A stretch of DNA of 64,000 nt from Sideroxydans sp. CL21 (GTDB lineage Bacteria; Pseudomonadota; Gammaproteobacteria; Burkholderiales; Gallionellaceae). The stretch covers positions 783,501 through 847,500 of the forward strand of contig NZ_LR699166.1 in assembly GCF_902459525.1 (NCBI RefSeq), read 5' to 3'. The notes under the pieces are model-generated. The model was given only the letters and a program-made list of their open reading frames with translations, did not search any database and was not told the DNA's origin. Positions 26,489 through 49,056 of the stretch are shown here, in pieces (position 1 is the first letter of the stretch; each line of letters opens with the position of its first letter). The position numbers and the translations under genes are program-made.

Positions 26489-26878
26489 ATGCAAACGCGC
26501 AAACCTATCAACATCCCCGTCATTGCCGCCCCCATACAGGAAAACGGCATGACCGACAGCAGTTGTTCAGGCAGCGAGATCGTTGCGCTGATGGTGCTGG
26601 GCTACGCCATGGCGCCGGAGTTCATCGAGGGCGAGATTTTGGTCATCGAAACGGGCGCGCCCGCAACGGATGGCATGTTCGTGATCGGATCGGCAGACGG
26701 GGAATTCATCTTTCGTCAGCTCAAGCGCGACGACCGGGGCGGCTGGTGGCTGCATGCGCTCAACCCTGCCTATCCCGATATTGCGATCGCAGGTCCGGAG
26801 ACGATCAAAGGCGTGGTCACCCACAAGAAGAAGCCCGGTTCGCGCAAGTCAGTCAAATATTACGTGCCGCATTATTGA
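26489..26878 (+). CDS. S24/LexA-like protein with substituted catalytic residues
   Basis: A 129-residue protein with the peptidase S24 beta-fold (LGYAMAPEFIEGEILVIE, GEFIFRQLKRD, IKGVVTHKKKPG). In active LexA/UmuD proteins the first motif is G(D/N)SM with catalytic Ser; here it is GYAM. The Lys of the second motif appears as Arg (FIFRQL). It is therefore probably not a self-cleaving protease and may act as a ligand or protein-binding module. No DNA-binding helix-turn-helix precedes it. The ATG at 26489 is chosen by fold start. Its stop codon (TGA, 26876-26878) is supplied by the left end of a palindromic element that begins at 26873, so the original C-terminus may have differed. Confidence 0.75.
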   Translation: MQTRKPINIPVIAAPIQENGMTDSSCSGSEIVALMVLGYAMAPEFIEGEILVIETGAPATDGMFVIGSADGEFIFRQLKRDDRGGWWLHALNPAYPDIAIAGPETIKGVVTHKKKPGSRKSVKYYVPHY

Positions 26879-27024
26879 TCCGGCATTCATTATCCAAGAA
26901 TCCGTTCGCATTGACCCTTCGACTGGGCTCAGGACTAAAGGCCTTGTCGAAATGTGAACGGATTCTTGTGCTTCGACAGGCTCAGCACGAACGGTAATGA
27001 GGTTCAAAGCGGGCCGGATCAATA
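26873..27024. repeat. TA-target palindromic element, copy 1 (152 bp)
   Basis: The ends are TATTGATCCGGC and GCCGGATCAATA (12-bp perfect inverted repeat). The interior holds two smaller inverted units, TCCGTTCGCATTGACCCTTC and CTTCGACAGGCTCAGCACGA. This copy starts inside the S24-like gene's last codons and supplies its stop. The length minus one TA is 150 bp, a multiple of three, as in all five copies. Confidence 0.85.
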
Positions 27025-27280
27025 GACCCTCTGAGAATTCAAACGGGATGGGGCCGGTTTTTCATTTCCGAAGCAGTCGTGGCCCTTGCCTGAAACGGGC
27101 GCACAACGCATCACAACTTCGTGCTTGGCCTGCGACGGCCCAAGATTTTTCGCGGAGAAGAGGGTGGATCAGGTCAATATATTTAACCTATCAACAAGAT
27201 ATCTATAATAAATTGGATCTATCGGCACTCGCGCCGTATGCTGGCCGTGCAGTTATCTCAAACAACCAAAGGAGATGATC

Positions 27281-47667: not shown

Positions 47668-47943
47668 CTACTCTTTGGATGGTTTCACGAAGCTGATGAC
47701 GTTCGAGTTCGGTTGCTCGCCATCCGCGTAGTAGGGTTTGGCCTGGTCGAAGTTGAGTTTCTCGGCCAGTTCTTTTTCCCGTTCCGAGATCAGGCCGAAA
47801 CAATCCTTGATGTCCTGGATGGTGCTATCCGTCAGCGGGTTGGCACGTCCGCCGAGCGGTGTGACGTCTCTGACAACATTGCCCAGTGTCTTCCGCATCA
47901 GGCGCAGGATCTGTTGTTCTTTGCTTAACTCTTCTGTGTTCAT
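47668..47943 (-). CDS. Conserved hypothetical protein (91 aa)
   Basis: A 91-residue polar protein (MNTEELSKEQQILRLMRKTL at the start, then GNVVRDVTP, PLTDSTIQDIKDCFGLISER and a C-terminal NSNVISFVKPSKE). I recall similar short betaproteobacterial proteins sometimes annotated as segregation and condensation protein A, probably by mistake. No motif gives a function. It is flanked by repeats on one side and by the lipoprotein gene on the other. Confidence 0.65.
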   Translation of the reverse strand: MNTEELSKEQQILRLMRKTLGNVVRDVTPLGGRANPLTDSTIQDIKDCFGLISEREKELAEKLNFDQAKPYYADGEQPNSNVISFVKPSKE

Positions 47944-48072
47944 GGATATATACCGGAGTGAATTGCAGGAAATAACTTTACTGGAATTGACGGGGTTGGG
48001 TCCAAATTATTTTTTCGGGCAATTGTCGTCGTGTGGATTGACGCTTGGAGTGCACAGAGGCAGATCGATGCG

Positions 48073-49056
48073 TCATTTGATGCTTGCGGTTTCAACTTTC
48101 GAATTGAGTTTCCTGAAATCGTCGATGTAGGACGCTATTTCTTCAGACAGGTGTTGCTTCTGCCGCGTTGTGAGCGTTGCCGCTATCCGGACTGTCATTT
48201 CATTCATGGCGTTTTCGTAAGCGGCGATGGCTTGCTGCTGTTGCGGTGTTCTGGACGTTTCAGGCGTGACGAGCCATTGCCGGAACAATGCGGCGATCCT
48301 GTCTTCGCCGGCCTTGTCTCTTAACAGGGCAATCAAACTGGCCTGTTTGGCTTCCCGCTGCTCGATGTAGGCTCTTGAGGCAAACGGTATGTGCAGGCTC
48401 ATCTCGGTGATCGCCTTTTCCTGCGCGGAGCTCAGGTTGCCGACCATTTTCTCCACGAGTTCCACATGTCTCTCCGCACGGTCATTTAGCATCTCCTGGT
48501 CGCTGCCATCAAGCATCTTTTGTCTTTGTTTGCGGCTTCGTTCTGCAAGCGTGTACGCAAGCTCCGTTATCTGGTCTCTGTCCAATGTGCTCAGGATGTG
48601 TGCGGCGGGCCGGATCATCGGTTCCATGGTCAATTGATATAGCCTTCCGCTTTCGGCTCTCAGGCGCATGACGTCGGCGACCGTCATGCCTGATTCCCGA
48701 TTGACCGTCGCATCCACATCCTGCAGGAACGCGATGTATCCCGGCAGTGCGTTCTTGCGATGCCAGCGCAAGTAGTTGTCGACCTCGAGATGGATCTGTT
48801 CTTTCTGTGAAGTGCTGAACGAGGTGTAACCGTTGATCCAGTAGCGCAGTATCCAGTCGGCGTGATTGTAGCCAAGGGTAACCATGCTGCAACCGCTGCA
48901 GCAGAGCAGGACGAGAATGATGAATATTGATCCGGCACGGTAAAGTCTGAAGTCCGTTCGCCTTGAGCTTGTCGAAAGGTGAATGGGCTTCGACAGGCTC
49001 AGCCCGAACGGTGTTAATACTTCACAGTGCCCGATCAATAATTTGCAGATATTCAT
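48073..49056 (-). CDS. DUF6279-like lipoprotein with a 38-codon insertion in its signal peptide
   Basis: A 327-residue protein. The mature part (CSMVTLGYNHADWILRYWIN, then LEVDNYLRWHRKNALPGYIA and a helical remainder) matches DUF6279-type lipoproteins. The N-terminus is MNICKL, then 38 residues (LIGHCEVLTP...RAGSI) encoded by a palindromic element (48925-49040), then FIILVLLCCSGC. Removing the element plus one TA gives MNICKLFIILVLLCCSGC, a textbook lipoprotein signal with lipobox. With the insert the hydrophobic core starts ~44 residues from the N-terminus, so export may be impaired unless another start is used. No suitable internal ATG precedes the lipobox. Confidence 0.82.
   Translation of the reverse strand: MNICKLLIGHCEVLTPFGLSLSKPIHLSTSSRRTDFRLYRAGSIFIILVLLCCSGCSMVTLGYNHADWILRYWINGYTSFSTSQKEQIHLEVDNYLRWHRKNALPGYIAFLQDVDATVNRESGMTVADVMRLRAESGRLYQLTMEPMIRPAAHILSTLDRDQITELAYTLAERSRKQRQKMLDGSDQEMLNDRAERHVELVEKMVGNLSSAQEKAITEMSLHIPFASRAYIEQREAKQASLIALLRDKAGEDRIAALFRQWLVTPETSRTPQQQQAIAAYENAMNEMTVRIAATLTTRQKQHLSEEIASYIDDFRKLNSKVETASIK
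48925..49040. repeat. TA-target palindromic element, copy 5 (116 bp), in frame inside the lipoprotein gene
   Basis: Ends TATTGATCCGGCAC and GTGCCCGATCAATA. The interior is GTCCGTTCGCCTTGAGCTTG and GGCTTCGACAGGCTCAGCCC. Net insertion is 114 bp (38 codons), nine bases shorter than the basic 123. It lies in the same orientation and reading frame relative to its host gene as the copy in the recombinase gene. Confidence 0.88.

Follow-up and report, generated by a model that had tools for sequence, protein, structure and literature searches.

The window analysed here is a 64,000-nucleotide stretch of the Sideroxydans sp. CL21 genome that sits within one single 3.77-Mb contig, and it holds five short elements with shared inverted ends. 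Copy 1 (26873..27024, plus strand, 152 bp) occupies the TA of the stop codon of a gene with a Peptidase_S24 domain (26423..26878, plus strand, PF00717), whose present stop, TGA, lies within the element. Copy 2 (37560..37684, minus strand, 125 bp) has the most decayed ends and lies just downstream of a recombinase-like gene (37711..40023, minus strand, PF10136 SpecificRecomb, 770 aa). Copy 3 (39286..39470, plus strand, 185 bp) lies within this gene, in frame, and is missing in three relatives. Copy 4 (47352..47560, plus strand, 209 bp) is inserted at a TA of another repeat, module B, the left and right halves of which flank it at approximately 47328..47351 and 47561..47589 (both plus strand). 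Copy 5 (48925..49040, plus strand), of the 116-bp form, lies in frame near the putative start of a minus-strand gene (48073..49056, PF19795 DUF6279) whose product is a lipoprotein, judging from its signal sequence; we picked the start codon by comparison with two relatives (MNINRL... there, MNICKL... here). Two copies enclose further repeats. Comparison with the 125-bp form places the probable ends of a nested 60-bp REP-like repeat in copy 3, again module B, at 39365..39424, and a 57-bp module C, also found in the 173- and 182-bp copies of a relative, probably spans 47462..47518 in copy 4 (both plus strand).

The positions and the lengths of 152, 125, 185, 209 and 116 bp given in the earlier note were borne out, as was its observation that each length minus 2 is divisible by three. 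The copies share a terminal inverted repeat of about 14 bp that starts TATTGATC; it is present in all five, as claimed, but is not perfect throughout, with three mismatches at the left and two at the right end of the copy at 37560 and one mismatch in four other ends. With up to three mismatches allowed, the window has 18 occurrences of the 14-mer against a mean of 6 in shuffled sequence, a count reached in 1 of 100 shuffles. The interiors are palindromic and form a predicted long hairpin, in which other repeat modules are nested; two window copies have folding z-scores of −3.5 and −7.4, a copy in a related genome (G013) has −8.2, and an Rfam search of window positions 26000-50000 gave no match at the gathering score. 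Elsewhere in the window genome there are two further complete copies of 125 bp each (1186121-1186245 and 3391154-3391278) and at least three decayed or interrupted ones, near 481443, 3387003 and 3553603.

Comparison of filled and empty sites points to insertion at TA. We found five empty sites with a single TA, where the filled sites show two. The site of copy 5 has one TA in two relatives; copy 4 interrupts a module B repeat at a TA that is single in uninterrupted copies of this repeat, and the same holds for the element G021:C8:154279. Two further empty sites, each with one TA, are that of G013:C117:25121 in the window genome and that of G157:C1:201313 in L136, a Candidatus Nitrotoga record. 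The expectation that empty sites would carry a single TA was thus upheld at five sites but not at two others: the copy 3 site has CT, CT or TT between the flanks in its three relatives, and empty alleles of pepN, a further host gene described below, differ in junction length, with no clean TA seen.

The earlier note had proposed an IS630-type transposase as the mover, and this guess is well supported by the single-TA empty sites together with IS630 elements that have matching ends. Among 158 genomes of the bacterial family, 52 have a match to the profile of the IS630 transposase, PF13358. We fetched the best 30 loci among the matches listed, and nine of these have converging 14-mer ends, with three or fewer mismatches to TATTGATCCGGCAC, 1106-1125 bp apart; five of the nine contain an open frame of 332-356 aa. 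Their usual end is TATTGATCCGGC..., and the opposite end is often TATAGA.... A 127-bp element (G158:C20:7065) resembles IS630 beyond the repeat as well, none of 300 shuffles giving as good a match over bases 15-40 at either end, and from this sequence likeness it can be read as an internal-deletion form of IS630. Over the same bases the resemblance of the window copies is weak: two of the ten ends were equalled by 3-6 of 300 shuffles, three by 7-15 and five by 36-181.

Among the matches listed, only four of the 34 genomes of the genus have a PF13358 match (G000, G028, G029 and G033), and G013 and G021, which have many copies of the element, have none. In the window genome we found no working mover; the sole PF13358 match there is broken and has no recognisable ends, being what is left of an IS630 transposase split over two frames (L323 461-1260, about 1089460-1090259 of the genome). 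The window genome's mover may have been lost, may lie in missing sequence or may be of a kind missed by the profile. We also considered a pair of ends 828 bp apart in G013 as an autonomous element and rejected it, as G013 has no PF13358 match and the interior, inspected by eye only, has no IS630 gene; its length falls in residue 1 and is outside the counts below. In another genome, G036 (L126-L130), five copies pair one TATTGATCCGGCAC end with one TATAGGTTCGGCAC end and are missed by patterns that require two ends; single-end matches there number 26 in all.

The palindromic interiors with their REP-like modules, and the recurrence of identical modules at the same place in different forms, would also suit a quite different account, in which the elements are not transposons but palindromic repeats of the REP type that a RAYT transposase, recombination or gene conversion has spread, and the TA ends are coincidental. 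We consider this account very improbable, given the exact ends, the single-TA empty sites and the IS630 elements that carry the same ends. The elements instead have the features of IS630-type MITEs: terminal inverted repeats shared with IS630, TA duplication, and short multicopy units that contain no transposase gene. We are confident, though short of certain, that they are a Gallionellaceae family of such MITEs and that the in-frame lengths came by descent. IS630 transposases would excise and insert these elements in trans, and the small forms would derive either from an IS that lost its interior or from IS ends that captured unrelated palindromic repeats between them.

The family extends well beyond the window genome. 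We searched 158 genomes with patterns covering each length from 75 to 255 bp; their fixed bases allowed no mismatch and TATTGAT was required at both ends, so that decayed or TATAG-ended copies were missed. From 92 complete elements returned we dropped a tandem array of ends in G156 and two composites of neighbours in G158, together with the second-strand match of each element, which left 89 complete elements. These come from 41 genomes and are short (84-237 bp), multicopy and without a transposase gene. Named records with the element belong to Sideroxydans, Gallionella, Candidatus Ferrigenium bremense, Nitrosomonadaceae and Nitrosomonadales bacteria; NCBI taxonomy places Sideroxydans and Nitrotoga in Gallionellaceae. 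Among 399 genomes sampled from the order, a pattern of 75-135 bp matched in five, three from the window family and two (G276 and G435) from other families. A 125-bp G013 copy had no match in a plasmid collection at E 1e-5.

Several arrangements of the repeats were seen along the way. Single MITE ends form tandem arrays with a 16-bp unit in L136 (375-495, six ends) and, in a genome related to this Nitrotoga record, at G156:C3:32373. Module B (ATAACCAGC...CTAGTAGTT), another REP-like repeat, measures about 50-66 bp and often lies inside other palindromes, with examples in the window genome at L035, L036, L038, L039, L044 and L051 and at window positions 47328-47589; MITEs insert into module B, and module B is also found inside MITEs. 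A different interior, of CATTCCCGCGAAGGCGGGAATCC type, occurs between the same ends in G021 (L121, L122, L264 and L265) and G017 (L123 and L124); the four G021 copies of this type, each of 184 bp, may reflect recent activity or capture of another repeat.

According to the earlier note, a length that keeps the reading frame is a property of the element, and five of five copies in frame had chance odds of about 1 in 243. The window genome is indeed regular, with an in-frame length in all seven complete copies found, although these have only five distinct, related lengths. Across the family the property does not hold. Taking length minus 2 modulo 3, the 89 elements fall into residues 0, 1 and 2 as 51, 14 and 24, so that residues 1 and 2 are well populated; three elements outside the family, two in G276 (both residue 0) and one in G435 (residue 2), were not counted. 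Over the 37 distinct lengths the residues are 17, 10 and 10 (p = 0.075 for an excess of residue 0). A scan of named genomes returned seven elements, all of residue 0, five of which were already among the 89; adding the two new ones (L135 and L138) gives 18, 10 and 10 over 38 distinct lengths (p = 0.051). The even spread over residues that the earlier note had named as refuting its claim is thus nearly reached, but residue 0 stays the commonest class: there may be an overall lean towards it, one that is far from a rule.

In three genomes, G000 (the window genome) and its close relatives G013 and G029, all 12 counted elements have residue 0. Without them the counts are 39, 14 and 24 over 77 elements and 12, 10 and 10 over 32 distinct lengths (p = 0.37), or 13, 10 and 10 over 33 distinct lengths with L135 and L138 added (p = 0.29). 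The eight distinct lengths in the three genomes, minus 2, are 114, 123, 126, 150, 171, 180, 183 and 207, and several are linked by modules: 185 bp is 125 bp plus the nested 60-bp REP-like repeat, 152 bp is 125 bp plus a 27-bp piece, and 209 bp is 152 bp plus the 57-bp module, which also separates 182 from 125 bp and 173 from 116 bp in a relative. In other genomes, kin of the 114- and 123-bp forms measure 113, 115, 122 and 148 bp. Because the five window lengths share ancestry and modules and so are not independent, the odds of 1 in 243 are invalid. Given the linked modules in three genomes and the forms one base off elsewhere, the regular in-frame lengths look like a local and historical matter, an accident of shared ancestry; those in the window would reflect descent from older forms of 123 and 114 bp combined with modules of 27, 57 and 60 bp. 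In-frame lengths in a few related copies therefore say little without a family-wide count.

These counts also bear on whether the family is akin to the Rickettsia palindromic elements (RPE), with lengths selected to be multiples of three so that proteins survive insertion. Such selection would account for the seven regular copies of the window genome, for the eight regular lengths of the three genomes and for residue 0 being commonest overall (over distinct lengths, p = 0.05-0.08); it would also suit the three independent insertions in genes, all in frame, and the pepN copy, which is open in five species. The near-even residues outside the three genomes and the relatives of the 114- and 123-bp forms whose lengths are off by a base speak against it, as does the location of the elements. 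We examined 96 elements (the 89, three copies from the window and four whose ends carry one mismatch), and only five, representing three events, traverse an open frame that continues for 40 or more codons in both directions. When the flanks were joined, a crude gene caller placed 31 of the 96 sites within a called frame; some of these may be interrupted genes. Most copies, then, do not lie inside protein genes, insertion in frame is not the rule, and the frames of the in-gene copies differ. We judge RPE-like selection to be unlikely and do not class the family as RPE-type, as the earlier note had suggested by resemblance; IS630-type MITEs with lengths set by descent remain our reading.

Two of the in-gene events are those in the window, where copies 3 and 5 (39286 and 48925) lie in minus-strand open frames and are read alike, as the earlier note had it. 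Copy 3 adds 61 residues to the PF10136 protein, which lacks them in three relatives, and copy 5 starts in codon 6 of the DUF6279 lipoprotein gene, before the hydrophobic core of the signal peptide; one relative reads MNINRLFIILALLCCSGC. The third event is an insertion in pepN, which encodes aminopeptidase N, and falls within the DUF3458 Ig-like domain. Twelve pepN genes were compared, a thirteenth genome (G170) having fragments only; an insert of 41 residues is present in five of them, from five species, and absent in seven. Alignment to the aminopeptidase N structure 5yq1_A puts it between chain positions 520 and 528. pS is 0.031 in the insert, 0.044 in the left flank and 0.147 in the right flank, and the corresponding pN values are 0.023, 0.051 and 0.017; the frame of the insert is kept, without clear protein-level constraint, a further point against RPE-like selection. 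Because the pepN insertion is read in a frame other than that of the two window copies, the reading frame of the family is not fixed. Different frames among in-gene copies are as expected of survivors, and copies in intact genes would be in frame because other insertions there were lost to selection.

At copy 1 the joined flanks read CAT TAG and the filled site reads CAT TAT TGA, so that the former TAG stop of the S24-peptidase gene is replaced by a stop from the TATTGA of the element after one added tyrosine. With TATTGA at both ends, insertion in the TA of any TAA or TAG restores a TGA stop after one tyrosine, and in the other two frames it begins open (TTG ATC or ATT GAT). A loose count puts 18 of the 96 elements in the stop codon of a long frame (19 cases by element and strand, against 6.7 expected). 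A strict count finds 8 of 96 at stop codons, an odds ratio of 2.6 over intergenic TA sites (p = 0.02), a figure that depends on crude gene calls, which class copy 1 as interior, and on related elements that are not independent. Both counts come from search patterns that demanded TATTGAT at both ends, and we take the excess at stop codons as a lead. That the ends have been shaped to be gentle on genes, and that the family steadily provides Gallionellaceae with new stretches of peptide, strikes us as rather doubtful.

Small mobile repeats of this general kind are known from other bacteria. The ERIC/RU-1, RU-2 and RU-3 repeats are not known to be related in sequence to the Gallionellaceae MITEs. 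The Correia elements (NEMIS) of Neisseria are small, TA-ended inverted-repeat elements of a betaproteobacterium, as the Gallionellaceae MITEs are small, TA-ended and inverted-repeat; they would be set apart by their ends, TATAGTGGATTAA... and not TATTGATCCGGCAC. Separate features of the family have already been covered in four sources (PMC3049150, PMC2759123, PMC5896051 and PMC10969869). The RUP element of Streptococcus pneumoniae, of about 107 bp, has ends resembling those of an IS630 element, IS630-Spn1, proposed to move it in trans (PMC3049150), and in this it is like the window family; its host phylum and its sequence differ, and the Gallionellaceae family is more variable in length and interior, with nested modules. 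ERIC/RU-1, RU-2 and RU-3 of enterobacteria are repeats that are small and mobile and form in-frame fusions between their own translated frames and genes, as with the Gallionellaceae MITEs, and RUP and NEMIS likewise have open frames and are found inside genes; 'IS630' is absent from this source (PMC2759123). In Coxiella burnetii, the MITEs QMITE1 and QMITE2 overlap genes, some in frame, but have direct repeats of variable sequence where the Gallionellaceae MITEs have TA (PMC5896051). RPE, of about 150 bp, lie in frame in genes, which is their likeness to the present family; a review gives 44 insertions for genes of R. conorii, with 11 of the 12 homologues from other species in frame (PMC10969869). 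Unlike RPE, the Gallionellaceae family has lengths beyond multiples of three and IS630 elements with the same ends.

The earlier note knew of no description of such an element in this kind of bacterium, and we found none of the Gallionellaceae family, including any as MITEs of Sideroxydans, Gallionella or Nitrotoga, in the literature searched, which includes few subscription journals; the string TTCGACAGGCTCAG occurs in no paper of that literature. The kind of element is known, as RUP, Correia and ERIC attest, and what is new is this family, the group of bacteria that hosts it and the pepN insertion. The iron- and nitrite-oxidising Gallionellaceae thereby gain a described source for their scattered palindromic repeats, along with a candidate mover, and pepN provides a clear case of a transposon-derived peptide persisting in a housekeeping enzyme. 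Were the ends indeed shaped to be gentle on genes, the family, with its inserts in pepN, the lipoprotein gene and the recombinase-like gene, would steadily supply new peptide segments in Gallionellaceae.
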